From Macrocystis pyrifera (Eukaryota > Sar > Phaeophyceae > Laminariales > Laminariaceae): DNA of 64,000 bases. Both the position numbers and the translations under genes were made by a program. This document shows, one piece after another, positions 1-51,805 of the stretch (position 1 is its first letter; each line of letters begins with the position of its first letter). The DNA is taken from NCBI GenBank assembly GCA_031763025.1, contig JASSKH010000002.1:19782168-19846167 (forward strand), written 5' to 3'. The notes below the pieces were generated by a model, which made no database searches, was not told where the DNA came from, and was given only the letters and a program-made list of their open reading frames with translations.

Positions 1-2267
1 CGGGAAGCCCGGTCGGACACATTGGTCGAGGTCTCGGCGCGATCCGTGCACTCTGGAGCGCGTGGCGGGCGTTCAAACTTTGTATTTCCGGCGGCAGTGG
101 ATAAGACGATCTCCCTGGTTTAGGTACGAGAGGCCTTATTTTGTACGTACGTATCGGTAAAGTATTGGAGTGTTTGCGATATTTTTTTTCAACTTTTAAT
201 CCTCCAAAAATTATCCCGAGGTAACTTTTTTAGGTAAACTTCTGAGAAAAAGGCAAAAAAGTACTCCAGCGAAGTCAGGATTTCATCAAAAGTTGCGGTA
301 ACTTTTGGCTCTCTGTTTCATAGGCCAACACGCACCGAGCATTTTCCCGACGCAGAACGCACCTCAAATATCAAAGGAACACCGAACATCTTCCATGCCA
401 CCATGCTGCTTGCTGTACGCATCACGACTGGGAGCGCAGAGGCTCGAGAGGTGTAGTTTGAGTATAGCGCGCACGAGCGGCGTTGGATTGGGCAGTGGGC
501 CGCCGCCGCACCTACGGTACACGCTTTCGCCCGCTTGATGACGACGTGGAGGATGCGTCGTCCCCAAAAAGCACTCGCACTCACACTCGTTCTCGTACTC
601 ACACTCGTACTGGTACAGCCTTCCTTGAAGAGCGCGACAGCATGCCAGCTCGTGTATCATTTCGATTTCACCATACTGTGCAGCAATCCAAAAATGGCAG
701 CTGGTTGGTGCTGGTGCTGACGCTGTTTATTTTGTTGCTCAAACTGATGCTGCCCCTAGCTGCCGCTTGCTGTGCTGCTGCTTGCAGGCATGGGGTGGCA
801 GCGGTGGCACCGCGGTCAACTCTGACGCCGAAACCGTTGCTGGGCTGCCGTTGCTACTCGCACGCAGTTTTTTTGTTTTTCGTTCTTTTTTGTTTGCCGC
901 GACGCCTCACGTCCCCACTTCCCTTCTTATTTTCGGAGGCGTCGCCTGCAGGACTGGGTTTACCTCACTCGCAAGCACACCGAAATCAGGAAGGGAAGGC
1001 AATTCACTTTTTCAGCGGAAGAAAAGATTTTTTTTTATACCTCTGTCGCAAACACTGTATTGTCGGTTTTCTCCCCTAGGCTCTCATGAGCTGTGAGCAC
1101 ACATATACCAGATACACAACAGACAACATGCACAGATATCATCGTTCCAACGCTGCCGCCCGCACGCGGTGCGTGTGCGACACACCCATATGCGCAGTAT
1201 TGCTGGCTGTAGCTAGTTGTGTCTGTCGGAGCCTGCCGTCCGTATCCCACCGTCTGCCAGATTTTTTTTTCATACGTATGCACCCAGGCTGGTATATACC
1301 AGGCATCCCTGCACATTTTTTGTGTTGCTGCACGCGGAGCACGGACCACGGCCCAAACAACAATAGCAACACTGCACAGAGCGTGCTCACCTGGCCTCCT
1401 ACAGCACCACAACCCTGCTGCCCAGCGCCAGCAGCAGTGGGCACACCTTGCGCGTATGGATGATCGTACTGCGGCTATTAAGGTTGGTTTATCGGAGATT
1501 TCGATCGATCACTTGCTCACGCCACCACCACACCACCATCACCTCTCTCCCTGCTGCTTCTTCTGCATATTACTGTGTGTGTTCCAACAATGCCACTGCT
1601 CCAGCTGTGCTCAGCACAGTGCGCCAACAGCAGCAACAGCCAGCGTACTATAATATGCGCATGTGGGTGAAGATACGCTCTGTACCCTCAGTACCAGTGT
1701 TCGTTGTTGTTGTCATCGGCATTGGCCTATGCACGTACCTTCCGCAATGTGTGACCGGCCTTTTTTGCTCGGTCCCGATCATCCCCAGATCGATATGTTC
1801 GTCGAGTCGAGTACACAACAAATCGTTCGTACAAGCATCGTGTACAGCAGCATTCGTACAAACCATACTTACAGTTACTGACTGCTGCGTGTTGTACACT
1901 GCTGACCGATAAATCATAAGCCAGCTGAAAGGGCATTAGTACACGTTCCTTTGTCGCAGTACGAGTATCTTCTGCTGTCGTATCATATCACATGGCATTT
2001 TACAGCAGTACCGCTGTACATGCAGTCGAACCTGTACAAGCTACTCTACTGTAGGAAATCCAGCAAGGTGTTTTAATTGGGTAAAAACCACAACGTGCCA
2101 GTTATACGAGCACTGCTCCACCGTAGATATGTCATACTGCGCTTGATAAATTTTTCGTTTCCGAGGGTCAACTCGCACCATCCACGCTTTTTTTTTTTCC
2201 TTCACCTTTGACTTTTTTCGTACCAGTACATCCACGCTGCTTTTCTGAACGTACTGGTATGATATAA
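1..2267 (+). mobile_element. Repeat family A, copy A1, 5' part (start lies upstream of the window)
   Basis: Non-coding repeat. Base 1 corresponds to about 93 bases into a full copy (compare position 6871 in copy A2), so the true end is just outside the window. The copy has the usual order of conserved blocks: the CCCGGCCGGACACATTGG block, the TGTGCTCAGCACA palindrome near 1606, the CCAGCTGAAAGG block near 1921 and the GAGGTTCGACTCGCACC-like block near 2165. It is interrupted by a TIR element at 168-1056 and cut at 2267 by the B1-B2 pair, resuming at 6273. No reading frame is conserved with the other copies. Confidence 0.8.
168..1056. mobile_element. TIR DNA transposon (889 bp), non-autonomous, inserted in A1
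   Basis: The left end reads GAGTGTTTGCGA and the right end is the reverse complement of AGTGTTTGCGA. Both are flanked by GTATTG (162-167 and 1057-1062), a 6-bp target duplication. Other A copies (for example near 41237) run through this point without the insert, which supports the boundaries. The same terminal motif bounds the element at 36592-37517. The interior includes a short CTCGTACTCACA-type simple repeat at 565-612 and no credible transposase. The TIR resembles hAT ends, but 6 bp is short for hAT, so the superfamily is left open. Confidence 0.7.
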
Positions 2268-2826
2268 TAATGAGGCGCGCGAAGCGCGCAGAACGTTCGA
2301 GCCTCTTTTTTCTAGGAATTTTCCAACATAAAAAAAGCCTCTTCATAGCGGCTCGCATACGAGGGTGGGGTGCCTTGTTTTGAGTTTCTCTGTGTGTGTG
2401 GGTGTGTGATTCAACATTTTTTTGGTCCACGTTTGACCACCGCGCTCAACGCACACAGCACCAATTCCAGTCCCGGCGGGCTCTGTGCACGCACACACAC
2501 AAACGAAACCTTCTCGTGCCGGTGCGGTGGTAACTCGTTCACAGTTAGTCGAGCTAGGTGCGGCAACGTGTATAGGTACATGTTTGTGCTGGGCCATGTT
2601 GCAAAAACACAGAACCGACCAAACACCAATATTTTGCTTTCTGAGTGCTACCTAACGAAACCCAGCTCTACGAGTACTCGTAGGCAGACTGTGCCTGTCC
2701 ACAGCAACGAGCGTTCGGGCCATGTCCCCGAGACATGCTGCAGGTGGTATTATCAGGCCCACCCTCCTACTGATGAGGGGACGGAGAAAAAGCACGAGAA
2801 GATCTGCTGTAGTTGTTGTACAGCAG

Positions 2827-3052
2827 TAGTAGTGGGGGCACTGCTAGAAGCTCTGTTGGACACACGTCAGGTTGTAGATTTTTCGTCTTCAAATAAACTA
2901 TGACTTCGGGACCAGGAAACACATGGTTCACACACAAGCCGAGCGTACTGGCAGTAGTAGTGGGGGCACTGCTAGAAGCTCTGTTGGACACACGTCAGGT
3001 TGTAGATTTTTCGTCTTCAAATAAACTATGACTTCGGGACCAGGAAACACAT
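2827..3052 (+). repeat. Tandem duplication of about 126 bp inside B1
   Basis: The segment from AGTAGTGGGGGCACTGC through the CTTCAAATAAACTATGAC block to AACACATG occurs at 2827-2926 and again at 2953-3052. Other B copies have it once, so this is a private duplication in B1. Confidence 0.8.
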
Positions 3053-3078
3053 GTACGAAGGGTTCACACACAAGCCGA

Positions 3079-3850
3079 GCGTACTGCGACGCTGACCCTG
3101 GCCTCGTGTGTCCTACTGCTACTGCTGCTGCTGTTTTGCTGCTGGAGAAGCTCTGGTGTAGATGTCGTACATCAGTAGTGGCGGTGACACACCTGCTACC
3201 TGCTACGACAAGTTCTCTCTCTTGGACAGAGCATGTCGGGTGCAGATTTTTCGTCTTGAAATTATTATGCCGAATTTCTTGTTCCGAACCAATACAGGAC
3301 AAAATCGAATACGTGCAAAAAGGGTTCAAGGGTTAGATTGACAAGCCGAGCGTACAGCGACGCTGACCCTGGCCTCGTGCGTCCTACTGCTACTGCTGCT
3401 GCTGTTTTGTTGTGCTGCTGTAGATGCCGTACATCAGTACAAGCAAGTAGTCGCGATGGCACCTGCTACCTGCTACGAGGAGTTCTCTCTCTTGGACAGA
3501 GCATGTCGGGTGCAGATTTTCGTCTTCAAATTATTACGCCGAATTTCGACTTCAAAACCAACACCTGACAATATCGAGTACGTGTACAAAGGGTTCAAGG
3601 GTTAGATTGACAAGCCGAGTCGCCGAGCGTACAGCGACGCTGACCCTGGCCTCGTGCGTCCTACTGCTACTGGCGCTGCTGTTTTGTTGCTGGAGAAACA
3701 CTGCTGCTGTAGATGTCGTACATCAGTACAAGAAAGTATTAATAGTAGTGGTGGCACCTGCTACGAGAAACAAGCTCTTTCTGTTGGACAAAGCAGTTCA
3801 GATGCAGATTTTTCGTCTTCAAATCATGCCGAATTTCAACCAGAAAACAC
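3079..3850 (+). repeat. Three tandem units of about 265 bp, B-family internal repeat (B1)
   Basis: Each unit runs from GCCGAGCGTACAGCGACGC through a CTACTGCTGCTGCTG tract, then GTAGATGTCGTACATCAG, GGCACCTGCTAC, and a CAGATTTTTCGTCTTCAAAT block to GGGTTCAAGGGTTAGATTG. Units start near 3079, 3350 and 3615. The same triplet array occurs in B2 (5020-5780), B3 (24525-25110), B4 (27225-27720), B5 (28855-29600) and inverted in B6 (50050-50660). Confidence 0.8.
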
Positions 3851-4361
3851 TGCTGTTGGAAACAGAAAAAAAAAACGTGTCAGGTGTGTGTTTATTCGTC
3901 TTCTTGTTGATCTTTCTACCCGTCGACATCCAGCACAACCAGTCAGTGTCCGTGCAGATTCTTGAATTCGCGAGAGATACGATACGAACACAAGTAATAA
4001 GTTCTGTGGTCACAGCAGTGCATATTTTTCGTCTTCAAATTATTATGCCGTATTTCGAGGTGGGAATACCAGGATACACACGACAAAATCCAGTACCTGG
4101 TATTTGTTACAGGTGTGTGCGTACTGGTGTGCTGTCTTGTGTTTTTCATATATCAAGAGCAGGAGAGGCCAATAATATTTACGGTATTGAGATTTACCAA
4201 CGACGGCGTATAGGTATTAATAGTAGGTAGTAGATGTTAGATGTTCGTTCGTGTTGGTTCAGCACAAAACAGAATAATCCGTATTCGCCCAGCATGATGC
4301 ATCGCAGATATGACTACTGCAGGTATTACTGAGGTTGCGCCTCATTACCACCAATTACTAA

Positions 4362-5597
4362 TAATGAGGTGCGCGAAGCGCGCAGAGCGCGCGAGCCATT
4401 TTTTTCTAGTATTTTTCCAAGATAAAAAAAAAACTCTTCATAGCGGCTCGCATACGAGGGTGGGGTGCCTTGTTTTGAGTTTCTCTGTATGTGTGAGTGA
4501 TTCAACATTTTCTTGGTCCACGTTTGACCACCGCTCTCAACGCACCCGGCACCAATTCCAGTCCCGGCGGGCTCTGTGCACGCACACACACAAACGAAAC
4601 CTTCTGGTGCTGGTGCGGTGGTAAGTCGTTCACAGTTGGTTGAGCTAGGTGTGGCAACGTGTGTAGGCACATGTTTGTGTTGGGCCATGTTGAAAAAACT
4701 CAGAACCAACAACACATTATAACGGTTTTTGCTTTCTGAGTTCTACCTACGGAATCCCAGCTCTACGCGTACTTGTAGGCAGACTGTGCTTGTCCACAGC
4801 AACGAGCGTTCAGGCCATGTCCCCGAGACATGCTGCAGGCCCACCCTCCTGCTGATGAGGGGACGGAGAAGCAGGAGAGTATCTGATGTATAGTTGTTCT
4901 ACAGCAGTATAGTAGTGGTGGCACTGCTACAAGCTCTGTTGGACACACGTCAGGTTGTAGATTTTTCGTCTTCAAACTATATGAGTTTGGAACCAGGAAA
5001 CACATGTACGAAGGGTTCACACACAAGCCGAGCGTACTGCGACACTGGCCCTGGCCTCGTGTGTCCTACTGCTACTGCTGCTGCTGTTTTGCTGCTGGAG
5101 AAGCTCTACTGTAGATGTCGTACATCAGTAGTAGCGGTGGCACCTGCTACCTGCTACGAGAAGTTCTCTCTTGGACAGAGCATGTCGGTACAGATTTTTC
5201 GTCTTTGAAATTATTATGCCGACTTTCGAGTTCAAAACCAACACAGGACAAAATCGAGTACGTGTACAAAGGGTTCAAGGGTTAGATTGACAAGCCGAGC
5301 GTACAGCGACGCTGACCCTGGCCTCGTGTGTCCTACTGCTACTGCTGCTGTTTTGCTGCTGGAGAAGCTCTGCTGTAGATGTCGTACATCAACTGAGAGG
5401 CGGTGGCACCTGCTGCCTGCCACGATGAGTGCTCTGTCCTGGACAGAGCATGTCGGGTGAAGATTTCTCGTATGCAAATTATGCCGAATTTCGAGTTCGT
5501 AACCAACACAGGACAAAATCGAGTACGTGTACAATGGGTTCAAGGGTTAGGTTGACAAGCCGAGCCTACAGCGACGCTGACCCTCGCCTCGTGCGTC

Positions 5598-5635
<38 letters not shown>

Positions 5636-6272
5636 TTGTTGCTGGAGTAACACTGCTGCTGTAGATGTCGTACATCAGTACGAGTAGCAAGTAGTGGTGG
5701 CACCTGCTACGAGAAAGAAAATGTTTCTGTTGGACAAAACATTTCAGATGCAGATTTTTCGTCTTCAAATTATGCTGAATTTCAACCAGAAAACACTGTT
5801 GGAAAAAACATGTCAGGTGTGTGTTTGTTCTTGTTCTTTCTACCCTGACCCGTCGGCATTGTCCGTGCCGATTCTTGAATCCCCGAGAGATACGATACCA
5901 ATACAAGTTCTGTGGTCACAGGTCACAGCAGTGCAATTTTTTCGTCTTCAAATAATTATGCCGGATTTAGAGGTGGAAACCAGGATACACACGACAAAAT
6001 CCAGTATTTGTGTATTTGTTACAACAGGTGTGTGCGTATTGCTGCTGTGTTTTTCATATACTGTATCAAGAGCAGAAGAGGTCAAGAACATTCACGATAT
6101 TGAGATTCACCAACCACGGCGTATAGGTAGTAGGTAGTACAGCAGCAGTAGATGTTCGTTCGTGTTTGTTCAGCACAAAACAGAATAATCCGTATTCGCC
6201 CAGCATCATGCATCGCAGATATGACCACTACAGGTGTTACAGAGGTCGCGCCTCATTACCACCAATTAGCAG
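4362..6272 (+). mobile_element. Repeat family B, copy B2
   Basis: Starts TAATGAGGTGCGCG directly after the end of B1 and ends CCACCAATTAGCAG. The flanking A1 sequence resumes with TACAAGG. An empty site in another A copy (near 8447) reads GATATAATACAAG, so the B1-B2 pair went in as one unit at a TA. Internal blocks match B1, with three 265-bp units at 5020-5780. Confidence 0.75.
5604..5633 (+). repeat. CTG microsatellite (10 units)
   Basis: An uninterrupted CTG run in the third 265-bp unit of B2. Equivalent positions in other B units have fewer and interrupted CTG triplets, so tract length varies between copies. Confidence 0.9.
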
Positions 6273-6777
6273 TACAAGGTGTGTGTGTTTTTATCCAAGT
6301 CCACGGAGTTTGGGCGCGCTTACGTGTGGCGTGCTTTCATACCTCAACTTTTCACAGCTGCTCAAAGTACTTGTAGAGCAAAGTGTAGTTCATGCAGATC
6401 GTGCAGACTCCATCCGGTAGAGATGTTCAGATCATCAAGGATCACACATATATCGATGATACAGATCCCACCCAGGCCATAAATACCTGGATGATGCAAA
6501 TCCCGTCAATTTTCTTCTGAATGATACGCTTTCCTTTGAGCAATACAGTAGTCTAAGCCTCCGATACTCCAAGACATGCGAGAGAGCATCGAAGATTGGA
6601 CTACTACTCTTCGCTTTTAGCAATATTACAGAACTACTGTACTGTAACCCATCACTCATTTTACTAATGGATCATTTTTACTCAAACCGGAGGTGCAAGG
6701 GTTTTACCTGCGTCTCCCTTTTCAACTTGCGACACCCTCCGGATTTCATACCACCCATATGCCGAAGGGGAACCTTG
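6273..6777 (+). mobile_element. Repeat family A, copy A1, resumed 3' part
   Basis: Resumes after B2 with the block that reads GAGTTTGGGCGCGCTTACG in other copies, then diverges. Most of the 3' half of a normal copy is missing and is replaced by about 280 bases of unique sequence (about 6410-6690). The last 90 bases are a diverged family A tail ending GGGGAACCTTG at 6777. Copy A2 begins at the next base. Confidence 0.65.
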
Positions 6778-6852
6778 TATGTATACGTATGTTTGTCAAA
6801 TGTTCGTACTTTTGCCAACTTTTCTCTTCGTACAAAGCACTTTTCGGCATAA
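6460..6852 (+). other. Open frame over a unique insert, unknown origin
   Basis: The frame after a TGA at 6457-6459 stays open for 130 codons and covers the only unique DNA in this part of the array. The first 75 or so codons read like ordinary protein (for example KYLDDANPVNFLL and SFEQYSSLSLRYSKTC) and are more AT-rich than the neighbours. The rest runs into the family A tail. There is no good start codon. It could be a captured exon or a chance frame; I do not recognise the protein. Confidence 0.25.
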
Positions 6853-8539
6853 CACCAAGCGCTCGCAAACGGGAAGCCCGGCCGGACACATTGGTCGAGG
6901 TCTCGGCGCGATCCGTGCACTCTGGAGCACGTGACGGGCGCCTAAAGTTTCTTTTTTCCGCGGGAGTGGATAAGACGATTTCTCTCGTTTCAGTACGAGA
7001 GGCCTTATTTTGTACGTACGTATCGGTACACATGCCCTCTGTTTTCTATCCCAGGCTCTCATGAGCTGTGAGCACACAGCTCAGGCATACACCAGGTGCA
7101 CAACAGACAACATGCATAGATCCCATCGCTCCAACGCTGCCGCCCACACGCCATGCGTGTTCGACACACCCATATGCGCAGTGTTGCTGTGGTTGGTTGT
7201 GTTTGTCGGAGCCTGCCGTCCGCATTCCACCGTCTGCCATATTTTTTTTTATCCGTACGCACCTGGGAATGATTGTATCCCTGTATGTATTTTTTGGGTT
7301 GTTGCATGGAGCACGGACCACCGCCTAGAGAACAATACCCACAGCAGTGCACAGAGCGTGCTTACCTCCAGCTTCCTACAGCATCACAACCCTGCTGCCC
7401 AGCAGCAGCAGTCGGCACACCTTAAGCGTATGGATGATCGTTAGTAATGATCGTACTGCGGCTATCAAAGTTGGTTTATCGGAGATTTCGATCGATCACT
7501 TGACCACGCCACGACCACACCACCAGCATTACCTCTCTCCGTGCTCTTCTGCTTATTGCTGTGTTATCCAACATTGCCACTGCTCCAGCTGTGCTCAGCA
7601 CAGTGCGCCAACAGCAGCAGCAGGCAGGGTACTATGCGCATGAGGAAGATCCGCGCTCTACGCTCAGTGTTTCGTTGTTGTTGTCATCGGCACACTGTCC
7701 TATGCATGTACCTTCCGCAATGTGTGACCGGCCTTTTTTGCTCGGTACCGATTATCCCCGGATCGACATATTCGTCGACTCGAGTACAACAAAAACAAAT
7801 CGTTCGTACTAACTGTACAACACTGTACAACAAATCGTTCGCACAGCAGCGTCCGTACCAAACATACTTTACAGCAGTAAGTAGTTCTGATTGCTGTGTG
7901 TCCTAGACTGCTGGCCGATAGATCCTAGAGCCAGCTGAAAGGGGGTCAGTACACGTACGTTCCTCACGTGGCATTTTACATTTTACACCAGTAGTACTGT
8001 ATATGCACTCTACATTAGTATCTGGTGTAGGAGATCGTGCAATGTGTTTCAGATTGAGTGAAAAACACGACGTGCCAGTTGTACGAGCACTGCTCATACT
8101 GAGCTCGATAAAATTTCCGTTTCCGAGGTTCGACTCGCACCATCCACGCTTTTTTTTTTCTGCAGTACCACAACACCAGTACATTCATTATCATTATTAT
8201 GCCTGCACCTTCCGACAAAATAGCGGAGATGCCGTTCCTATATACACCGAACATCCTTCCTTAAATCAGCAGTATCCCTCATACGCTTCTCTGTGCCAAA
8301 CGTTTCCCAATTTCCATTCCCCACATCATTTTAGCTACCGGCATTCATCCACCTTGCTTATATAATACAAGTTGTGTGTTGTGTTTTTTCCACTTGTGTT
8401 TGTACCAGCACGTTCATCCACCTTGATTTTCTGAACGTAAAAGATGATATAATACAAGTTACTCGTGTGTTTTACCCAAGGTAATGAGTTTGGGCGCGCT
8501 TAGGTGTGGCGTGCGTTCCTACCTCAACATTTCACAGCT

Positions 8540-8558
8540 ACTCCCGATATTCGGGAGT
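8540..8558. repeat. Hairpin in family A with a compensated base pair
   Basis: Perfect stem ACTCCCGA-TAT-TCGGGAGT. At the same place copies A5 (16151-16169), A4 (17427-17445) and A6 (19534-19552) have ACTCCCAA-TAG-TTGGGAGT: both arms changed together and pairing is kept. A7 (21879-21897) has one mismatch. Confidence 0.8.
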
Positions 8559-9210
8559 AAAGCAAAGCATGTTCGAGAAAATACTGCTAGGTACATCGTA
8601 CACTCACTCGCAGTATTTCAGGGGCTTTGTACTCAAGATACTGCGAGTACTGGCAATATTTTGAGGTTCTGTATACTACTTCAGATACTCCTCCTGCGCA
8701 TACTTTACCGCTCGAACGAATGCGGGGTTCGCTACTGCTGCTGTCGTGGATACTTCCTGCCGTGCTTCAAGTATCTCGGGGTTCTGTACCGCGGGTACTA
8801 CGAATATACTAATCTAGTCTAGCAGTATTTCGTCCGTTGGTAGTGTTCGTACTGCTGCTTCTGCGAGACTCAGTACTCGCAGTAGTACCGAAATACCCTC
8901 AATATGCTCATTATACTTCGAGCATTAAGTATACTTCAACCGTCTGTGCACCGTGTCGACAATCCTCAGGTCCAGCGTTCGACACAAAACACTCCCAGAT
9001 AGTCCCACAAGTGGGAGTTGGAGCAAACTACTTTCGCTGGAGACAACTCGAGTTCTTAAAGCAGTCTGGCAGTATGTCGAGACATGCATTTGCGAGGAAT
9101 ATATATGCATGTACTGCGAATACTCTCAGTATCTCGAGGTTCTGTACTGCGCATATTGCCTCTACTCCCATTTAGTGTTTCGATACTATACTACGGGTAC
9201 ATCACATGCC

Positions 9211-9540
9211 GGCGTCCCCGGTGGCTTGGTAGGCGGTCCGCGAGCCTATCAAGATCAATTTCGTGAGTTCGAGTCTCACCGAGTGCATGCTCGTAGGGAC
9301 TTTTTCTTGCATAAAATTGATTAGCGGAAAGCGCGAAAGCGTGAGTTGGCTACATTCGATGAAAATCGACGAGCAGTGGGAATGCCGAACCCTATGCGCG
9401 ATAAAAACTAAAGGCACGTACCGGGGGGGAGAAGGGATGACACCTGTGACCACGGCTTGTCCAGAAGATCGCTGAGGGTAAATCCTTCTACGAGTTAGGC
9501 TGGAAAGTAAAAGGGATGATTGAAAAAATACAAAAAAAAA
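9211..9540 (+). mobile_element. tRNA-derived SINE, copy 1
   Basis: About 330 bp. The head carries RNA polymerase III promoter motifs: a box A-like GTGGCTTGGTAGG near 9221 and a box B-like GAGTTCGAGTC at 9265-9275. It ends in an A-rich tail (GAAAAAATACAAAAAAAAA). The empty site in A3 (near 12195) reads GGGTACATACTTACC across the insertion point. Mobilisation would need an unseen LINE partner. Two more copies are at 13770-14102 and, inverted, 42416-42729. Confidence 0.8.
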
Positions 9541-10119
9541 TACTTACCTGTGTTCTCGGTGTTCGGTACTGCTCATATTCTCATTACTATCAGTATTTGG
9601 GCCGTCTCAGTACTCGCAATATTTTGGCCGCCAGTACTCCAATACCCTCAGTACTCCGACCACGATTTGTTCTCGAGCATTCATCTGTGAAAGCTTGATG
9701 TTACCCTGAGCACCAAGAAACACTCATTTTGGGGGAATATATACATGTATACATTGTACTAGTATGTATGTGATGTACCTTACTCAGCCGGTCACAAAGC
9801 ATTATCGCGCAACCTCGACCTCACCCAACTTTTTTGTGCTTACGTTTACGCCGGATACATTGATTTGATCGCCACGAGTCATCTGGATCAATATATCCAC
9901 TTGCCGATACCCTATTTTATATTATTGCAGTAATGACCCCACACTGATTCCGCAAACAGCAGTGTAGTAGTATGTCCTCCAAAATATGTGTGTGTTGTAC
10001 AACATTAAAATGATGGGCGGATGCAGGTATACTACTTCTAAACAGGTGTGCAGGATTTCATACGAGTATTATTTCGCTCTTGCGCCACTCCCCCAGGCAC
10101 CTCCCGGAGGGGAACCTTG

Positions 10120-10245
10120 TATATTGTATTCGCATGTGCTGTATTTTACTCAGTCGGTCACAAACATTATGGGGCAACGTCGACCTCACGCAACTTTTTT
10201 GTAGTCTTCAGGATCAATATCCACTTACCGGTACCCTAATTTATA
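10120..10245 (+). mobile_element. Repeat family A, copy A0 (outermost), middle fragment
   Basis: After A2 ends, sequence equivalent to the CCGGTCACAAAG / GCGCAACCTCGACC block of family A appears with no 5' part in the window. It is cut at the CCCTAATTTATA sequence by A3. The continuation (TATTGTAGTAATGATCCC) is found 22 kb away at 32452. Confidence 0.6.
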
Positions 10246-12576
10246 TGTTATGTATACGTACATTTGTCAAATTTTCGTACTTCAGCCAACTTTTCTCTTC
10301 GTACAAAAGCACTTTTCGGCATAACACGTAATGCTCGGAAACAGGAAGCCCGGCCGGACACATTGGTCGAGGTCTCGGTGCGATCCGTGCACTCTGGAGC
10401 ACGTGACGGGCGCCCAAAGTTTTTTTCCGGCGGGAGTGGATAAGACGATTTAACTGGTTTCAGTACGAGAGGCCTTATTTTGTACGTACGTATCGGTACA
10501 CATGCCCTCTGTTTTCTATCCCCGGCTCTCCTGAGCTGTGAGCACACAGCTCGGGCATATACCAGGTACACAACAGACAACATGCATATATCCCATCGTT
10601 CCAACGCTGCCGCCCACACGCCGTGCGTGTTCGACACACCCATATGCGCAGTGTTGCTGTGGTTGGTTGTGTTTGTCGGAGCCTGCCGTCCGCATTCCAT
10701 CGTATGCCATACACATGGTATATTTTTTATCCGTATGTGCCCAGGATGACGTATAATATCCCTACATTTTTTTTGGGTTGTTGCACGGAGCACGGACCAC
10801 CGCCTGGAGAACAATACCCACGTGCACAGAGCGTGCTTACCTCCAGCTTCCTACAGCACCACAACCAACCCTGTTGCCCAGCAGTGGGCACACCTTGCGC
10901 GTATGGATGATCGTACTGCGGCTCATTCGTACAGCAGCGTTCGTACAAAACATACTTACAGCAGTACAGTAGTTCTTGCAGTGTGTCCTACATTGCTGAC
11001 TGATAGATCCTAGAGCCAGCTGAAAGGCGATCAGTACACGTACGTTCCTCGCGTGACATTTTACATTTTACAGCAGTACTGCTGAATATGCAGTCGTACC
11101 TGTACAAGCTACTCTACTGCAGCAGGAGATCGTGCAACGTGTTTTAGATTGCGTAAAAAACACGACGCACCAGTTGTACAAGCACTGCTATTCTAGCGTG
11201 TACGTTTATACTGCGCTGGATAAATTTTCGTTTCCGAGGTTCGACTCGCACCATCCACGTTTTTTTTTTTTGTCAATTGACTTTTTTTGTACCAGGACTA
11301 CAACAGTACTACAGCGCTAATAATGATACATTCGTCCACACCTTGCTTTTCTGAACGTATAGCATGATATACTGTACTATTAGTTGGGTGTGTTTATTTT
11401 CCACTACTGACTTTTTTTGTGCCAGTACATTCATCCACATTGCTTTTCTGAACGTATAATATGTTATAGTCCATGTTACTTGTGTGTTTTAGCCCAAATG
11501 AAAGAGTTTGGGCGCGCTTGCGTGTGGCGTGCGTTCATACCTCAACATTTCACAGCTACTCTCCGAATACTTGGGAGTAAAGCAAAGCATGTTCGAGAAA
11601 ATACTGCTGCTAATACTGTAGGTACTTCGTACACTCGCAGTATTTCGAGGTTTTTGTACTCGAGATACTGCGAGTACTTGCAGTAGATATTTTGAGGTTC
11701 TGTAGATACTACTGCGTATACTTTCGGGCTCGCACTAATGCGGGGTTCGCTACTGCTGCTGGCATGGATACCGCCGGTTGTGCTTCAAGTATCTCGGGGT
11801 TCTGTACCGCGGGTACAAGTATACCAGATACTGTACTAGTCTAGCAGTATTTCGTCCGTTGGTAGTGTTCGTACTGCTGCTTCTGCGAGACTCAGTACTC
11901 ACTCGCAGTAGTGAAATACCCTCAACATGCCCAGTATACTTCGAGTATGAAGTATACTTCAACCGTCTGTGCACCGTGTCGACCAGTCTCAGGCCCAGCG
12001 TTCGGCACAAAACACACCCAGATAGTCCCACACGAATGGGAGTTGGAGCAAAGTACTTTCGCTGGAGACAATTTGAGCAGTCTGGCAGTATTTCGATATG
12101 CATGTACTGCGAATACTCTCAGTAGCTCGAGGTTCTGTACTGCGCATATTGCCTTGACCACAAGTATTACGGGTATTTCGTGTTTCGATACTACTGCGGG
12201 TACATACTTACCTGTATTCTCGGGGTTCGGTACTGCTCACACTCTCATTACTCTCAGTATTTGGGCTTTCTCAGTACTCGCAATATTTTTGCCGCCAGTA
12301 CTCCAATTGCTCTCAGTTCTCCGACTACGATTTGTTCTCGAGCATTTACCTGTGAAACCTTGATACTACCCCCCGAGCACCAAGAAACATTTATTTTGGG
12401 GAACATATATATTGTAGTACCAGTGTGTATAGTGTGTATTTATGTGCGATACCTTACTCAGCCGGTCACAGAGTATTATGGCGCAACCTCGACCACGCGC
12501 AACTTTTGTTGTACTTACGAATTAATCGCCGCGAGTCAGCTGGATCAATATATCTCCACTTACCGATATACCCTAT
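10246..12576 (+). mobile_element. Repeat family A, copy A3, 5' part
   Basis: Begins TGTTATGTATACGTAC, the same 5' end as A8. It lacks the segment between the GATCGTACTGCGGCT block and the CGTTCGTACAAAACATAC block (deletion near 10920). It is cut at the ACCGATATACCCTAT sequence by A4 at about 12577. The likely continuation is at 31503-32451. Confidence 0.65.
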
Positions 12577-17344: not shown

Positions 17345-17796
17345 AGTAACTTGTGTTTTTACCCAAGGTAAAGAGTTTGGGCGCGCTTACGTGTGGCGTG
17401 CGTTCACACCTCAACATTTCACAGCTACTCCCAATAGTTGGGAGTAAAGCAAAATATGTTCGAGAAAATACCGCTATTATTATTGTAGGTACTTCGTACA
17501 CTCGCAGTATTTCGGGGTTTTTGTACTGGAGATACTGCGAGTACTCGCAGTATTTTGAGGTTCTGTCGATACTACTTCGTATTCTTTCGGGCTCGCACTA
17601 ATGCGGGGTTCGCTGCTGTTGCTGGCGTAGATACCCCCTGTTGTGCTTCAAGTGTCTCGGGGTTCTGTACCGCGAGTACTACAAGTATCTAGTCTAGCAG
17701 TATTTCGTCCGCTGGTAGTGTTCGTACTGCTGCTTCTGCGAGACACAGTACTCCCAGTAATGAAATACCCTCAATATGCCCAGAATACTTCGAGTA
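17345..17796 (+). mobile_element. Repeat family A, copy A4, second segment
   Basis: Resumes after A5 with the TTTACCCAAGGTAAAGAG block, continues through the ACTCCCAA hairpin (17427-17445) and the palindrome at 17532-17553, and is cut at CAGAATACTTCGAG by A6. Confidence 0.75.
17532..17553. repeat. 22-bp perfect palindrome
   Basis: Each arm reads ATACTGCGAGT. The identical palindrome is at 21982-22003 in A7, with one mismatch in A6 near 19635. A nearby inverted copy of the arm (ACTCGCAGTATTTCG) allows alternative foldbacks. Confidence 0.85.
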
Positions 17797-20390: not shown

Positions 20391-23082
20391 ATATGTATAC
20401 GTATATTTGTCAAATTTTCGTACTTTTGCCAACTTTTCTCTTCGCACGAGCACTTTTAGGCAAAACACTAAGTACACGGACACGGGAAGCCCTGCCGGAC
20501 ACATTGGTCTAGGCCTCAGCGCGATCCGTGCACTCTGAAGCGCGTGGCGGGCGCTCAAAGTTTCTTTTCCGGCGGGAGCGGATAAGACGATTTCCCTGGT
20601 TTCAGTAAGAGGCCTTACTTTGTACGTACGTATCGGTACATACATGGTCATGCTGTCTGTTTTCTCCCCTAGGCTCTCACGAGCTGTGAACACACAGCTC
20701 AGACATATACCAGGTACACAACAGACAACATGCACAGATCCGAACGTCCCAACGCTGCCGCCCCCCCCCCCCCCCCGCCCACCCGCCGTGCGTGTGCGAC
20801 ACACCCATATGCGCAGTGTTGCTGTGGTTGGTTGCCTTTGTCGGAGCCTGCAGTCCGCATTCCACCGTTTGCCATACGCGTATACTTTTTGATCCATATA
20901 TATCCCAGGATGACGTATATATCCCTGTACATATATTTTGTGTTGCACGGAGCACGGACCACCGCCTAGAGAACAATAGCCACAGCAGTGCACAGAGCGC
21001 GCTTACCTCCAGCTTCCTACAGCACCACAACCCTGCTGCCCTGCTGCCCAGCAGCAGCAGCAGTGGGCACACCTTGCGCGTATGGCATGATCGTACTGCG
21101 GCTATCACAGTTGGTTTATTCGATCGATCACTTGACCACGCCACGAACTAACTATTGCTGTGCGTGATCCAACATTGCCACTGGTCGAGCTGTGCTCAGC
21201 ACAGTGCGCCAACAGCAGCAGCAGGCAGGGTACTATGCGCATGTGGAAGATCCGCGCTGGAAGCTCAGTACTACTACTGTACGAGTAGTTCGTTGTTGTT
21301 GCCATCTTCATTGGCCGATGCACGTATACCTTCCGCAGTGTGTGATCCATTATCCCCGGATCGATATATCTCGAGTAAAACAAAAACTATTAATAATCGT
21401 TCTTACTGCTGTACAACAAAATTATTCGTACAGCAGCGTTCGTACAAAGCATACTTGCAGCAGTAGTAGTTCTCATTGCTGCGTGTCTTACATTGCTGAC
21501 CGATAGATCCTAGAGCCAGCTGAAAGGGGGTCAGTACACGTACGTTCCTCGCGTGGCATTCTACAGCAGTACTGCTGTAGGAGATCGTGCTAAGTGATGT
21601 AGATTGCGTAAAAACACGACGTGCCAGTTGTACGAGCACTGTTCTAGCGTAGACGTTTATACTGCGCGCGATAAAATTTTCGTTTCCGAGGTTCGAGTCG
21701 CACCATCCACGCTTTTTTTATATTCCACTTTTGACTTTTTTTGTACCAGTACATTCATCCACCTTGCTTTTCTGAACGTATAATATGATGTACAAGTTAC
21801 TTGTGTGTTTTTACCCAAGGTCAAGAGTTTGGGCGCGCTTACGTGTGGCGTGCGTTCACACCTCAACATTTCACAGCTACTCCCAATAGTTAGGAGTAAA
21901 GCAAAGTATGTTCCAGAAGATACTGATTATTATCGTAGGTACTTCGTACACTCGCAGTATTTCGGGGTTTTTGTACTCGAGATACTGCGAGTACTCGCAG
22001 TATTTTGAGGTTTTGTCGATACTACTTCGTATACTTTCGGGCTCGCACTAATACGGGGTTCGCTACTGCTGCTGGCGTGGATACCCCCTGTTGTGCTTCA
22101 AGTGTCTCGGGGTTCTGTACCGCGGGTAGTACAAGTATTCTAGTCTACAGCAGTAGCAGTATTTCGTCCGTTGGTAGTGTTCGTACTGCTGCTTCTTCTG
22201 CGAGACTCAGTACTCGCAGTAATGAAATACCCTCAACATGCCCAGTGTACTTCGAGCATGATGTATACTGCAACCGTCTGTGCACCGCGTCGACAATTCT
22301 CAGGCCCAGCGTTCTGCACCGAACACACCCAGATAGTCCCACACGAGTGGGAGTTGGAGAAAACCACTTTCGCTGGAGACGATTTGAGTACTTAAAGCAG
22401 TCTGCTAGTATTTCGAGGTACGCATTTACGAGGAATATATATCATGCATGTACTGCGAAATACTCTCAGTATCTCGAGGTTCTGTACTGCGCATATTGCC
22501 TTATATTTCGTGTTTCGATACTACTGCGGGTACATACTTTCCTGTATTCTCGGGGTTCGGTACCGCTCACACTCTCATTACTCTCAGTATTTGGGCCTTC
22601 TCAGTGCTGGCAATATTTTAGCCGCCAGTACTCCAATACTCTCAGTGCTCGGACTACGATTTGTTCTCGAGCATTTATCTGTGAATGGTGTTACCCTGAG
22701 CACCAAGAAACATTTATTTTGGGGGAACATATATATTGTACCAATATGTATGTGCTGTACCTTACTCAACCGGTCACAAAGTACTATGGCGCAACCTCGA
22801 CCTCGCGCAACTTTTTTGTAGTCACGAATTAATCGCCGCGAGTCAGCTGGATCAATATATCTCCACTTACCGCTACCCTATTTTATATTATTGTAGTAAT
22901 GATCCCACACTATAATTCCGTGAACAGTATAATAGTCTGTCCTCAAAAATATGTTGTGTGTTCTTGATGGGTGGATGCAGGTACTACTTCTACACAAGTG
23001 TGCAGGGTTGCATACATACGAATATTATTTCGCTCTTGCGCCACTCCCCTATTCATACGGCACCTCCCGGAGGGGAACCTTG
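20391..23082 (+). mobile_element. Repeat family A, copy A7 (end to end, innermost)
   Basis: From ATATGTATACGTATATTTG to CTCCCGGAGGGGAACCTTG. The next bases, TATATTGTACCAGTATG, are the continuation of A6 from its cut. The uncut sequence GGGGGAACATATATATTG is seen inside A7 itself (near 22725). This gives a clean related empty site and defines both ends of the family to within the (TA)n ambiguity. A cytosine run lies near 20760-20776. Confidence 0.8.
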
Positions 23083-23437
23083 TATATTGTACCAGTATGT
23101 ATGTGCTGTACCTTACTCAACCGGTTACAACGTATTATGGCGCAACCTCGACCTCGCGCAACTTTTTTGTACTTACGAATTAATCGCAGCGAGTCAGCTG
23201 GATCAATATATCCACTCACCGCTACCCTATTATATAGTATTGTAGCAATGATCCCCCACGAATTCCGTGAACAATATATAATAGTCTGTTCTCAAACATA
23301 TGTTGTGAGTGTTCACGGTAAAATGATGGGTGGATGCAGGTGCTACTTCTAAAAAAGTGTGCAGGGTTTCATACGAGTATTATTTTGCTCTTGCGCCACT
23401 CCCCTATTAATACGGCACCTCCCGGAGGGGAACCTTG
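23083..23437 (+). mobile_element. Repeat family A, copy A6, 3' end
   Basis: Contains the GTGCTGTACCTTACTC block, the GCGCAACCTCGACC block and the canonical 3' end (CTCCCGGAGGGGAACCTTG) at 23437. It is followed by TATGATGTATACTTC, the continuation of A4. Confidence 0.75.
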
Positions 23438-23873
23438 TATGATGTATACTTCAACCGTCTGTGCACCGCGTCGACAATTCTCAGGCCCAGCGTTCGATAC
23501 TGCTCACACCCTCATTACTCTCAGCATTTGGGCCTTCTCAGTGCTGGCAATATTTTTGCCGTCAGTACTCCAATACTCTCAGTGCTCGGACTACGATTTG
23601 TTCTCCAGCATTTATCTGTGAAACCTTGATGTTACCCTGAGCACCAAGAAACATTTATTTTGGGGGAACATATATATTGTACCAGTACGTAACATATATA
23701 TTGTACCAGTATGTATGTGCTGCACCTTACTCAACCGGTCACAAAGTATTATGGCGCAACCTCGACCTCGCGCAACTTTTTTGTACTTACGAATTAATCA
23801 TACATACGAATTAATCACCGCTAGCCAGCTGGATCAATATATCCACTTACCGCTACCCTATTTTATATTATTG
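23438..23873 (+). mobile_element. Repeat family A, copy A4, third segment
   Basis: Resumes at the ACTTCAACCGTCTGTGC block, has an internal deletion at GCCCAGCGTTCGATACTGC, contains a short duplication of the AACATATATATTGTACC sequence (near 23667-23708), and is cut at TTTATATTATTG by B3. Confidence 0.7.
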
Positions 23874-26401
23874 TAATGAGGCGCGCGAAGCGTTTTCTTG
23901 GAATTTTCCAAGAAAAAAAAAGCCTCTTCATAGCGGCTCGCGTAGGGTGCCTTGGTTTGAGTGTTTCTGTATGTGTGTTTATGTGTGTGGGTAGGTGTGT
24001 GTGTGATTCAACATTTTTTTGGGCAACGTTTGACCACCGCCCTCGGCGCACACCGCACCAATTCCAGTCCCGGCGGGCTCTGTGCGCGCGCACACACAAG
24101 CGCACACACAAAAGAGACCTCGTGCTGGTGCGGTGGTAAGTCGTTCACAGTAGCTCGAGATAGGTGTGGCAACGTGTGTAGGCACATGTTGGTGCTGGGC
24201 CATGTTGAAAAACACAGAACCAACGACACATTATAACGGTTTTTGTTTGAAACCCAGCTCTACGAGTACTCGTAGGCAGACTGTGCCTGTCCACAGCAAC
24301 GAGCGTTCGGGCCATGTCCCCGAGATATGATGCAGGCCCACCCTCCTGCTGATGAGGGGACGGAGAAGCAGGAGAGTATCTGCTGTATAGTTGTTGTTCA
24401 GCAGTAGTAGTAGTGGTGGCACAGCTAGAAGCTCTGCTGCTGGACACATGTCAGATTGTAGATTTTTCGTCTTCAAATTATGAGTTCGGGACCAGGAAAC
24501 ACATGTACGAAGGGTTCACACACAAGCCGAGCGTACAGCGACGCTGACCTGGCCTCGTGTGTCCTACTGCTGCTGCTGTTTTGCTGCTGGAGAAGCTCTG
24601 CTGTAGATGTCGTCCATCAGTAGTAGCGGTGGCACCTGCTACCTGCTACGAGAAGTTCTCTCTTGGACAGAGCATGTCGAGTGCAGATTTTTCGTCTTGA
24701 AATTATTATGCCGAATTTCGAGTTCAAAACCAACACAGGACAAAATCGAGTACGTGTACAAAGGGTTCAAGGGTTTAGATTGACAAGCCGAGCGTACAGC
24801 GACGCTGACCCCGGCGTCGTGTGTCCTACTGCTACTGCTGCTGCTGTTTTGTTGCTGGAGAAACACTGCTGCTGTAGATGTGTACAAAGGGTTCAAGGGT
24901 TACATTGACAAGCCGAGCCGCCGAGCGTACAGCGACGCTGGCCCTGGCCTCGTGCGTCCCACTGCTACTGCTGCTGCTGTTTTCGTTGCTGGAGTAACAC
25001 TGCTGCTGTAGATGTCGTACATCAGTACAAGCAAGTAGTGGCACCCGCTACGAGAAAGAAGCTGCTTCTGTTGGACAAATAATTTCAATGCAGATTCTTC
25101 GTGTTTAAATTATGCCGAATTTCAACCAGAAAACACTTGCTGTTGGAAAAACAGAAAAAGAAAAAACATATCACAGGTGTGTGTTTATTTGTCTTCTTGT
25201 TCTTTGTTCTTTCCACCCGTCGACATCCAGCACAACCAGCCAGTGTCCGTGCCGAATCTTGAATTCCCGAGAGATACAATACGAAAACAAGTAATAAGGG
25301 CCACTCCTAACGAACAAAAAAAATCACGATTCGTGAGATTTTTGTTGAGAATCGTGATTTTTTTGTCGTGAATCACGATAAAAAAAATCACGATTCATGA
25401 CGCCAATTTTTTTAGCTTTTCCCTCAAAAAAACAAAATCACGATTCGTGACATTTGTCGTGTCTCAAAATACGCCTGATCAAGGCACCACGCAACCCACG
25501 TGCACCAACGGTATCCGATGGTCGTCATAGGGGCATGGCAGACTCTGCTTCGCACGCTGCTTGTGGACAACGGGCGGCTACCCAAGGACACCGCTGGGCG
25601 CGGGCTAACGAGGAGGTTGTGGCCTCGAAATTTCCAGGAGGAGGAGCCACTGCTGGAAGACAAACGGGAAAATGACCTGAGGATGTCACAGGCCAGGCCG
25701 GGCAGACGGCCTGCGAGATGGAATCTCGCGAAACGAGCTTGGCCGACGGCCGGTGAAGTTGGAATCTCGCAGGCTGGGTCAGGCTTCGGCCCGCGATTCG
25801 AATATGTCACGGGCTAGGCCAGGTGCGGACGGCCCAGCCCGGCCTGGCCGTGCCCCACTCTCGAGAGTTTGCTCCACACCCCCAAAAAACGTTGGGTTTG
25901 AAATATCAGAACTTTAACTATTTTGAAAATATTACAAAACGCGACGTTTTTTTTCGGCTTTTTTCGTTAGAACTGAAATGTTGCGGATCGTGATCTTTTG
26001 GCATGCCTAAAAATCACGAATCGTGATTTTTTTTTGGTTCGTTAGGAACGGCCCTAAGTTCTGTGGTCACACAGCAGTACATAATTTTCGTCTCCAAATT
26101 ATTATGCCGGATTTCGAGGTGGAAATACCAGGATACACACGACAAAATCCAGTACCTGGTATTTATTACACGTGTGTCCGTACTGCTGTGCTGTCTGTGT
26201 TTTTCAAGAGCAGGATATGATCAGATGATGCCAAGAATATTTACGGTTATGAGATTCACCAACGACGGCGAATAGGTTGTAGGTGCAGCAGCAGTAGATG
26301 TTCGTTCGCGTTGGTTCAGCACAAATGTTTTGCATGATGCATCGCAGATATGACTACTGCAGGTATTGCTGAGGTCGCGCCTCATTACCACCAATTACTA
26401 G
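23874..26401 (+). mobile_element. Repeat family B, copy B3
   Basis: TAATGAGGCGCGCGAAGCG at the start, CCACCAATTACTAG at the end. Flanks TTTATATTATTG and TAGTAATGATCCC join to the uncut A sequence seen near 22888, so the insertion is exact at a TA. Three 265-bp units lie at 24525-25110. A 757-bp Harbinger-like element interrupts it at 25298-26054. Confidence 0.8.
25298..26054. mobile_element. PIF/Harbinger-like element (757 bp) with TAA target duplication
   Basis: Terminal inverted repeats of about 38 bp begin GGGCCACTCCTAACGAAC on the left and GGGCCGTTCCTAACGAAC on the right, and continue with an A run and ATCACGATTCGTGA. TAA flanks both sides (25295-25297, 26055-26057). The empty site is present in B1 (about 3991-4012, AAGTAATAAGTTCTG) and inverted in B6 near 49870. 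TIRs beginning GGGCC with 3-bp TAA duplications are classic PIF/Harbinger features. The interior has an open frame at 25500-25817 with no recognisable nuclease. Confidence 0.85.
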
Positions 26402-26568
26402 TAGTAATGATCCCACACTAATTCCGTGAACAGTATAATAGTCTGTCCTCAAAAACATGTTTGGTGTGTTCTTCACGTGAAGATGATGGGTGGATGCAGG
26501 TACTACTTCTACTCGTGTAGGGTTGCATACGAATAGTATTTTGCTCTTGCGCCACTCCCCTATTCATC
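26402..26568 (+). mobile_element. Repeat family A, copy A4, fourth segment
   Basis: Short piece with TAGTAATGATCCCACAC, CTGTCCTCAAAAACATG and GCGCCACTCCCCTATTCAT, ending a few tens of bases before the family 3' end, where B4 is inserted. Confidence 0.7.
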
Positions 26569-31100: not shown

Positions 31101-31502
31101 ATATCTGTGATTTCGAAATTTATAAAATATCTGTGGTCACAGCCAGTGCATATTTTTCGTCTTCAAATATTATGCCGGATTTCGAGGTGGAAACCAGGAT
31201 TTATGCAACAAAATTAACAATAACGACAGAACAGGTAGGTGTGTGCGTACTGCTGCTGTGTTTTTCATACACATGTATATCAAGAGCAGAAGAGGCCAAG
31301 AACATTTACGATATTATTGAGATTCACCAACGACGGCGTATAGGTATTAATAGCAGGTAGTACAGCAGCAAGCAGTAGATGTTCCTTTGTGTTGGTTAAG
31401 CACAAAATAACAGAATAATCCGTATTCGCTCAGCATGATGCATCGCAGATATGACTACTGCAGGTATTACTGAGGTCGCGCCTCATTACCACCAATTATT
31501 AG
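28192..31502 (+). mobile_element. Repeat family B, copy B5
   Basis: Same structure as B4, interrupted at 29615-30991 by a TIR element. It resumes with GTTGGAAAAAACATGTGAG and ends CCACCAATTATTAG. About 25 bases of B sequence present in B4 near 27712-27736 are missing at the insertion. Confidence 0.75.
29615..30991. mobile_element. TIR element, composite (about 1.4 kb), inside B5
   Basis: The left end is TAGAGTGTTAGCGCAG and the right end is the complement of TAGAGTGTCTGCGCA. A second inward-facing end (complement of TAGAGTGTTAGCGC) lies at about 30886-30900, so it may be an element inside an element or carry a duplicated end. I see no clear target duplication, and flanking B sequence was lost. 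No transposase is recognised. The interior includes the sequence TCGTCGGTAA twice. Confidence 0.5.
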
Positions 31503-32451
31503 TGTAGTTTGTCCTCAGACCGTTTCCTATGCGGATCGATTTCGAGCTTCAGATTTGTATTTTTCGATCTCAAAAATGAATGACCCTGCTTATGCAGTCC
31601 AAATATGCAAAATCCGGCCGGAAAATTTTCGATTTGAGAATCCGATGACCCAAGTCGTCGGATTTTGGACCAAAATACGACGACCTGGGTCATCAGATTT
31701 TCAAATCGAAAAATGGCATGCTCTTTAAATTCAATATGTTATCCACGACAGCAAACGGCAGCAGAACGATCGACGAGTTGGATGGTGATACAGCCGCTGT
31801 ACAGCGACGTTGCTTCGCGCCCGACGCGCGGACGGCGCGTCGCGCGTCCCTCCGTGGCCAGACTAGAGTCGGCTGGCGCGGGCTCGGGCCTAGAGACCAA
31901 GAGAAGCGCACTCGGCACGCGCCTCTCCGTGGATACGTACTCGTAGACTACACTGTTGTACAGCAGCAGCAGCAGCAGCAGCAGTCGGTCACAAAATGAA
32001 ACACAAAATACCATCAGAGGTTGACTCTAGCGCACTCGCCTCGTCTCTTCGCTGCCAGACCAGAGGCAGTCAGCGTGGGCTCGGACGCTTGGGTCCTACG
32101 CGCGGGGCAGCGCACCCAGCGCGTCTCTTCGCGGCGCCAAACCACAAAAACAGCAGTTGGTCTCGGCGTTTGCTGGAATCTCTAAATGCACAATAAATCT
32201 GATTTTTCCGCATAGGTAGACTCTTTCGATTTGCCAAGTTCATATCTGAAAATGACATCGGGTCAAAATCTGAAGCTCAAAAATCGAACCGCATAGGAAA
32301 CGGCCTCAAAAACATGTGTGTGTTCTTCACGTTAAAATGATGGGTGGGTGCAGGTGCTACTTCTAAACAAGTGTGCAGGGTTTCATACGAGTATTATTTC
32401 GCTCTTGCGCCACTCCCCTATTAATACGGCACCTCCCGGAGGGGAACCTTG
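31503..32451 (+). mobile_element. Repeat family A, probable 3' end of copy A3
   Basis: TGTAGTTTGTCCTCA, interrupted by the 788-bp element, then AAAACATGTGTGTG through to the canonical 3' end at 32451. Assignment to A3 follows from bracket order. The left side of this piece is missing bases relative to the A3 cut, so the assignment is inferred. Confidence 0.55.
31518..32305. mobile_element. TIR element (788 bp) with TCA target duplication
   Basis: TIRs of about 40 bp begin GACCGTTTCCTATGCGG (left) and GGCCGTTTCCTATGCGG (right) and share GAGCTTCAGATTT. TCA flanks both sides (31515-31517, 32306-32308), and the empty sequence CTGTCCTCAAAAACATG is present at about 26442. A 3-bp duplication suggests PIF/Harbinger-like, but TCA is not the usual TWA. 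A CAG run lies at 31961-31984. I see no transposase. Confidence 0.75.
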
Positions 32452-32660
32452 TACGTGGTATTGTAGTAATGATCCCATACAGCATACTATTTCCACAAAC
32501 AGTAACAGATGAGTCTGTCCTCAAAAATATGTGTGTGTTCTCCACACTGATGATGGCTGGATGCAGCCACTACTTCTAAACAGGTGTGCAGGACTTCATA
32601 TGAGTATTATTTCGCTCCTGCGCCATTTCCCTCGCAGGCACCTCCCGGAATCGAACGTTG
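32452..32660 (+). mobile_element. Repeat family A, 3' end of outermost copy A0
   Basis: TATTGTAGTAATGATCCC continues the A0 sequence cut at 10245. The copy ends with a mutated tail (CTCCCGGAATCGAACGTTG). It is the most diverged 3' end, as expected for the oldest copy. Confidence 0.6.
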
Positions 32661-38430: not shown

Positions 38431-38611
38431 TAGGGGTGCGCCTGAGGTCCTTTTTATAGCCGGTACCAGCAATATCAGTGTCCATTGACCGTTGTGCGCA
38501 GAGATGAATTTCGTTTTTTTTTACCAATCACAACGAAGAAAATTGACAGCAGCCGTCATCATTTTTTTTCATTAGAGACCAAAGCCCAAAAGCTTGGAGA
38601 ATTTCTGGAAA

Positions 38612-40484: not shown

Positions 40485-40490
40485 TACTCC

Positions 40491-51799: not shown

Positions 51800-51805
51800 G
51801 GAGTA

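Follow-up and report, generated by a model that had tools for sequence, protein, structure and literature searches.

The described systems closest to the element treated here are the Helitrons and the Cryptons. Canonical Helitrons have been defined by their characteristic ends and by a rule of insertion between A and T (PMC4067079, PMC4778049), and the Helraiser element was reported to read through its 3' end when the hairpin fails (PMC4778049). Helitron2-type elements of Chlamydomonas display a "3'-overabundance" (PMC3627910), the Helitrons of Fusarium combine self-insertion with multiple 5' termini (PMC5148889), and the CryptonS elements of stramenopiles mostly have common TATGG termini and carry terminal direct repeats of 5-6 bp (PMC3212892); each trait is cited as given in the portions of these papers drawn on here. 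This report concerns family A, a mobile element whose copies are inserted into one another in a 64,000-nucleotide stretch of the Macrocystis pyrifera genome (C200:19782168-19846167, hereafter the window). We consider family A a probable non-canonical, non-autonomous rolling-circle family, moved in trans by a Helitron-type Rep/helicase, and give this reading a probability of about 0.5.

The genome searched was the M. pyrifera assembly (537,376,219 bases in 223 contigs). Ends were counted genome-wide as 20-mer matches with up to 2 mismatches, with reversed patterns as control; places were taken from the first 100 matches of each pattern, and place-based figures apply among the matches listed. 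Family-A loci elsewhere in the genome bear L numbers, and 20 of them, selected because both ends are perfect, were read in detail over 7-10 kb each. Element coordinates refer to the uninterrupted copy L011 (3,313 bases), on which four internal insertion sites are named alpha (about 2004), delta (2470), gamma (about 2950) and beta (3110).

Ends, copy number and structure of family A

Family A is genuinely mobile: a non-autonomous element of about 1.7-4.5 kb that is present in high copy number. In the window its 3' 20-mer occurs five times, always on the plus strand (mean in shuffled sequences 0.00), and its 5' 18-mer six times at up to 3 mismatches (0.03 expected). Genome-wide there are 2,332 matches to the 3' end and 1,202 to the 5' end, against 10 and 8 for the reversed controls, so that the two ends proposed in a preliminary description of this DNA hold well beyond the window. 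The 3' ends outnumber the 5' ends whether the latter are counted with the outermost pattern or with an inner one (1,224). Among the matches listed, 36 of the 68 perfect 3' ends on C125-C135 have a perfect 5' match (the outermost 20 bases, or the 20 bases from position 9) on the same strand 1.65-4.5 kb upstream, and 32 have none.

Fourteen of the 20 loci read are bounded at both ends by non-A DNA, and they form seven distinct flank groups (the L009 group, the L011 group and L023-L027), so that the two ends do occur together in non-A surroundings; the check that the preliminary description proposed for its own refutation thus did not refute it. L022 is a composite copy sitting in non-A DNA, and the remaining five (L013, L015, L016, L020 and L019) lie within another A copy. 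The copies have mosaic interiors and common ends: conservation extends over most of the first 50 bases (20 copies) and of the last 60 (40 copies) when copies are chosen by a perfect 20-mer, and the termini are TATG...CTTG in the copies read. In 10 copies compared, no terminal inverted repeat (TIR), terminal direct repeat or A-tail links the two ends. The three forward frames, followed in 25 copies, stop early at the same codons in 14 of them (48/39/21, or one codon later in A5); in L009, L027 and A6 one frame is open for more than 250 codons, although this frame is not the same in all. Three family-A frames matched no Pfam family at E 0.1. The element thus has no coding capacity in the copies read and, as the preliminary description also had it, no TIR, no long terminal repeat (LTR) and no poly-A tail. 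These ends exclude a TIR transposon, an LTR element and a short or long interspersed nuclear element (SINE or LINE): family A shows neither the terminal inverted repeats and fixed duplication of DDE transposons nor the A-tail or tail repeat and target duplications of SINEs and LINEs.

A variant 3' end, CACATCCCGAAGGGGAACCTTG, has 362 genome matches to the form in the window at up to 2 mismatches. It marks a sister subfamily, A', and often stands directly before a family-A 5' end.

The nest in the window

Comparison of the window with itself brought out two families: A, with plus-strand copies at 6778-32660 and 40996-43334 and a diverged one ahead of 6777, and a second one, B. The copies are named A0, A1, A3-A7 and A9, and X is the outermost host copy of the nest:

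1..6777, plus strand: A0, its 5' end just outside the window, with the variant 3' end GAAGGGGAACCTTG; unrelated insert at about 154-1060 and two tandem family-B copies at about 2257-6268
6778..10119, plus strand: A1, both ends present, adjoining the A0 3' end; SINE insert at 9203-9546
10120..10248, plus strand: fragment of X, the outermost host, element about 2945-3109
10249..12573, plus strand: first part of A3, element 1-3110, inserted in X at beta
12574..14481, plus strand: first part of A4, in A3 at beta; has a shortened 5' end, runs up to element 2004 and carries a SINE at 13765-14101
14482..17344, plus strand: A5, in A4 at alpha, truncated by 13 bases at its 3' end
17345..17796, plus strand: second part of A4, element about 2025-2470, matched from 17353
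17797..20391, plus strand: first part of A6, inserted in A4 at delta
20392..23082, plus strand: A7, complete, in A6 at gamma, GGGGGAACATA^TATATTGTACC
23083..23437, plus strand: last part of A6, intact 3' end
23438..23875, plus strand: third part of A4, element 2473-2532, then 2774-3112
26401..26567, plus strand: fourth part of A4, after a family-B insert, element 3116-3287
32304..32451, plus strand: last part of A3, intact 3' end
32452..32660, plus strand: last part of X, element 3112-3313 at 32459-32660, decayed 3' end
40996..43334, plus strand: A9, un-nested, both ends in non-A DNA; inverted SINE at about 42420-42735

The layers are therefore X, with A3 at its beta site, A4 at the beta site of A3, A5 and A6 at alpha and delta of A4, and A7 at gamma of A6; the A4 remainder is also split by family B. 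A1 is likewise nested in X, at gamma, as its right flank is X element 2945-3109, and its left neighbour is the A0 3' end at 6777. The relative age order is X, A3, A4, A6 and A7, oldest first. It agrees with the order proposed earlier, in which the outermost copy was called A0, and it can be extended by A5, which is also younger than A4. The same sites are used elsewhere in the genome: L019 and the L013 group are inserted at the same base of alpha, the inner copy of L022 lies at beta, and L053 lies inverted at gamma.

The claim that the hosts resume exactly where they were cut holds for A6 after A7, where the junction is exact, and less well elsewhere. A5 ends CACCTCCCG at 17344, and with the loss of 13 element bases and some host bases its junction with A4 is not clean; at the A6 junction there is a 2-base difference to the other copies shown; and X, interrupted near element 3109 (window 10246), resumes at element 3112 (window 32459) after 7 extra bases.

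An origin of the cluster as a tandem or satellite array, by unequal crossing-over, is highly improbable. Head-to-tail copies do exist: the string GGGGAACCTTG-N(0-30)-TATGTATACGTA was found exactly at 29 places genome-wide and its reversed pattern at none. Eight of these are gapless, 14, all on the unplaced contigs C7-C187, share a 3-base gap and probably represent one locus spread by duplication, and 7 have other gaps. However, the hosts resume where they were cut, the element length and the points of interruption vary, and both ends recur in the seven flank groups described above. The nests thus reflect real transposition rather than satellite amplification, as the preliminary description had argued, and an array is rejected for them, whereas tandem dimers at some loci may have spread by duplication.

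Insertion site and target motif

The cleanest evidence on the insertion event comes from two empty sites. For A7 in A6, 29 spanning empty copies were found, and six of the seven shown are gapless; for the L019 insertion there are 30, and all seven shown are free of gaps at the junction. Neither site has a duplication or a loss of target. The A6 empty sites are ambiguous, as four of the seven shown carry 2 more bases and three carry 2 fewer.

Of 52 distinct flanks on the right of the element, 51 start with T and 50 have A as the second base, followed by Y, a weak R-W-A, G/T, then T at +8 (36/52) and A at +9 (31/52). Of 37 distinct flanks on the left, 31 have A at -1 and 32 have T at -2, and this side is otherwise uninformative. 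TA also follows 37 of 40 unselected perfect 3' ends. The target motif is TA^TA(C/T)NNN(G/T)TA, informative almost solely rightward, a near-palindrome (TATACNNNGTATA) entered from one side; the AT-rich targets noted earlier are supported. A 9-bp duplication subsequently lost on one side was also considered and rejected, because in 23 paired flanks the 9-mers on the two sides agree no more often than shuffled pairs do (72 vs 70.6). One position pair (-3 with +7) reached z 3.5 among 280 tested and is unexplained.

Motif sites were scored with a weight matrix for which un-nested sites alone were used (39 right, 29 left). In 8 A copies, which are related so that their sites are not independent, the density of strong sites is 1.35 per kb; in non-A DNA, of which 59.6 kb were scored, it is 0.34 per kb. 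For weaker sites the densities are 5.9 and 2.1 per kb. The non-A DNA at window positions 43501-64000 holds 9 strong sites vs a Markov expectation of 1.1, which indicates that the genome at large is rich in motif sites. Among positions in six A copies, the nested sites rank at percentiles 99.5 (alpha, L019), 99.7 (alpha, L013), 99.9 (delta) and 99.9 (gamma), that is, in the top 0.5%. The re-used beta does not, ranking at 98.4 with the letters of X and at 88.3 with those of another copy.

Proposed preference of family A for its own sequence

Five of 40 unselected perfect 3' ends have family-A DNA next, or six if a 40-base match in L059 is counted. The five are L053 (inverted), L071 (at alpha), L067 (at or in the first bases), and L057 and L080 (9 and 3 bases before a 5' end). 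This share exceeds the roughly 1% of the genome that family A fills by a rough estimate (2,332 copies of about 2.7 kb); none of 20 left flanks ends in family-A DNA. The striking preference of the element for its own sequence, as it was first described, is therefore partly upheld, since the share is above expectation, and partly accounted for, since the motif-rich copies and the top-ranking alpha, gamma and delta explain much of it. We infer that the nests arose largely from motif-rich copies with re-used sites, in an element-crowded genome and contig, and not from a dedicated self-targeting device. Against this stand the low rank of beta and the exact tandems, which motif supply leaves unexplained; the motif score of the tandem junctions is not high, and the tandems are thus not accounted for by the supply of sites.

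A true self-targeting, in which enzyme bound at the ends of resident copies would attract new insertions, we regard as rather unlikely. It would fit three of the 40 unselected 3' ends, which are followed at a distance of 0-9 bases by the 5' end of a further A copy (L057, L067 and L080), as well as the 29 tandem places with their gaps of up to 30 bases. Furthermore, 12 of 13 independent-looking self-insertions have the orientation of the host and one (L053) is inverted (two-sided p 0.003), and motif sites, which lie on both strands of A (strong ones 19 on plus vs 6 on minus, weaker ones evenly split), are not a full explanation of this bias. However, six of the 13 come from this single window, and inverted nests may be lost; a head-to-head run with 0 matches tests insertion in an inverted copy, is no mirror of the tandem search and is not usable as a control.

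Nature of the mobilizing enzyme

Several copies bear the marks of a process that starts at the 5' end and stops at the 3' end. L022 has two 5' ends and one 3' end between non-A flanks, L102 has its first 22 bases twice, and two of 100 perfect 5' ends among the matches listed are accompanied by a second perfect 5' end within 22 or 74 bases. In L027 the first 3' end lacks its last 30 bases or so, and the copy ends at the next intact 3' end. Seamless insertion between A and T, unlike ends, the 3' excess, the double 5' ends and the read-through in L027 are as expected of a rolling-circle element. The genome also holds Helitron Rep genes, with 63 matches to Helitron_like_N, five of them with an identical match score, and frames of up to 1,646 aa. 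In the mechanism that we favor, an enzyme acting in trans would recognise the two unlike ends of family A and insert the element between A and T at TA^TA(C/T)NNN(G/T)TA, with no target duplication; the 5' start and 3' stop would give rise to extra 5' ends, 3' read-through and the 3' excess, and the motif-rich A copies would serve as re-used landing sites, from which the nests would result. The enzyme would be a Helitron-type Rep/helicase.

Two traits of canonical Helitrons are thus present, insertion between A and T and, at A7 and L019, the lack of a target-site duplication. Other observations weigh against the rolling-circle reading. The ends are TA...CTTG, without the canonical 5' TC and 3' CTRR, and in place of the palindrome of 16-20 nt about 11 bases from the 3' end there is just a 4-bp stem 6 bases from it, no better than in shuffled sequences (z 0.16; variant end -0.59). 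No inverted repeat like that of the 5' end lies near the 3' end in the 10 copies compared, nor are there asymmetric terminal inverted repeats between their ends, a Helitron2/Helentron trait. No credible A termini were found at 12 Rep loci (about 3.5 kb) or in three 9-kb Helitron stretches, which stop short of the Helitron ends. A positional link to Helitron genes looked promising at first and was not reproduced: the first lists (95 variant ends and 47 other ends against 59 of the 63 Rep matches) gave three downstream pairs within 25 kb on the same strand, three further lists (58 Rep positions against 100 3' ends, 47 5' ends and 38 others) gave none, and another 100 listed ends, compared with all 63 Rep matches, gave one pair already counted and two on opposite strands. 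In addition, extra ends can come from other DNA-based mechanisms, and four nested junctions (A5, A6, A3 and A4) are not clean. The type of the element could not be placed in the preliminary description; its anatomy now appears closest to non-canonical Helitrons, which eases this difficulty without removing it.

A Crypton-like tyrosine recombinase could instead move family A as a double-stranded circle, with TA as the common core and integration at resident ends as the source of the tandems. TA at both junctions, common to element and target, the exact head-to-tail tandems, the TATG start beside the mostly TATGG termini reported for CryptonS (PMC3212892, in the part drawn on) and a DIRS-like recombinase fragment inside L016 all speak for it. 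This fragment belongs to a 3.4-kb insert (L016 element 997-4357) with a tyrosine-recombinase-like frame (PF00589, E 0.001, below the cut-off) and, by eye, an RNase H-like frame, and the insert is probably a DIRS-like retrotransposon fragment. We nevertheless consider such a recombinase quite unlikely, because the terminal direct repeats of CryptonS are missing (the right flank of A shares TA, rarely TATG, with the 5' end) and the left flank has no motif beyond TA. The genome gave no PF00589 or PF12012 match, in searches that are weak: PF00589 is insensitive, scoring the L016 recombinase itself at 19.3 bits vs a cut-off of 27.1, and PF12012 matched in no control genome either. A heteroduplex version, in which half of the copies would lack the first 7 bases, was rejected, as the inner and outer 5' patterns are about equally frequent (1,224 vs 1,202). 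The serine-recombinase profile PF00239 (IS607-like) had 0 matches in the genome and matched in 9 of 14 controls.

Replitron is an HUH element without a helicase. Family A might be a new TIR-less DNA transposon that is neither Helitron nor Crypton, for example a helicase-free HUH element like Replitron, with its own target motif; the non-canonical ends point this way, as do the missing coding partner and a right-sided TA^TAYNNNKTA absent from the Helitron descriptions compared, in the portions drawn on. We judge it rather unlikely, as A^T insertion, lack of duplication and multiple ends are already Helitron traits and no enzyme was found, which leaves nothing positive in its favor. A more specific form, likewise outside Helitrons and Cryptons, in which the enzyme would read the near-palindromic TATAC-NNN-GTATA one-sidedly and be drawn to resident 5' ends to yield tandems and nests, is unlikely.

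Other elements around family A

The other repeats of the window are as follows:

2257-6268, 23876-26400 and 26568-31503, and 49527-51331 on the minus strand: family B
9203-9546, 13765-14101, and 42420-42735 on the minus strand: SINE, some 300 bases long and A-tailed, within A copies; its copies are 90-91% alike
about 31518-32303, inside the A3 remainder: element with inverted ends CCGTTTCCTATGCGG and a possible 5-base duplication, CCTCA
38425-40932, and 51354-53854 on the minus strand: inverted pair of 2.5 kb, 95% identical
43935-44786: open frame that weakly matches PF22938, the C-terminal domain of a retroviral-type integrase (E 6e-06, narrowly short of the cut-off)

Family B starts with TAATGAGGCGCGCGAAGCGCGC, a 6-bp stem with a GAA loop, and ends with TGAGGTCGCGCCTCATTACCACCAATTACTAG and a second hairpin; both hairpins beat shuffled sequences (z -2.0 and -2.3). 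It is inserted seamlessly before T, has head-to-tail tandem copies and, with a CTAG end and an inverted repeat near both ends, looks Helitron-like more clearly than A. The SINE is presumably of tRNA type, by its box motifs; an ARAGORN tRNA scan and an Rfam scan of the window found nothing. On C200 (22.0 Mb, 4.1% of the assembly) lie 16 of the 63 Helitron Rep matches and, of the 62 variant 3' ends that are exact, 11; it is a transposon-rich contig, perhaps the scaffold with a gene-poor half mentioned in the part of PMC10498591 drawn on.

Significance and comparison with known systems

Layered self-insertion is already known for Helitrons and other mobile DNA. New are family A itself, its non-canonical ends, the one-sidedness of its target motif and the repeated use of particular internal sites, as measured here; literature searches, which left subscription papers largely uncovered and so are no proof that the family is unpublished, found no description of it. 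Because A lands in A, the genome provides hundreds of built-in empty sites, and a single genome is enough to measure how this seamless transposon chooses its targets, how precisely it inserts and how it skips ends. Should the rolling-circle reading be correct, kelps hold an abundant Helitron-like family that is missed by searches based on TC...CTRR ends; if the enzyme proves different, brown algae hold a new class.

Family A shares with canonical Helitrons (Helitron1; Helraiser/Helibat1) insertion between A and T, the lack of duplication and of TIRs, non-autonomous relatives, nesting and read-through to a later 3' end, and differs from them in TATG/CTTG rather than TC/CTRR ends, a weak 3' hairpin and a longer, right-sided target motif. 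With Helitron2/Helentrons/DINE-1 and FoHeli it has in common non-canonical ends, self-insertion, multiple 5' termini and an excess of 3' ends, whereas it lacks an asymmetric inverted repeat near the 3' end and its target is not T-rich. CryptonS elements are similar in the lack of TIRs, a TATG-type start and a stramenopile host; unlike them, family A has no 5-6-bp terminal direct repeats and no linked recombinase. Finally, large genomes carry nested retrotransposon clusters, in which layered insertions give relative ages in the same manner as here, while family A builds its layers with neither an LTR nor a coding part.

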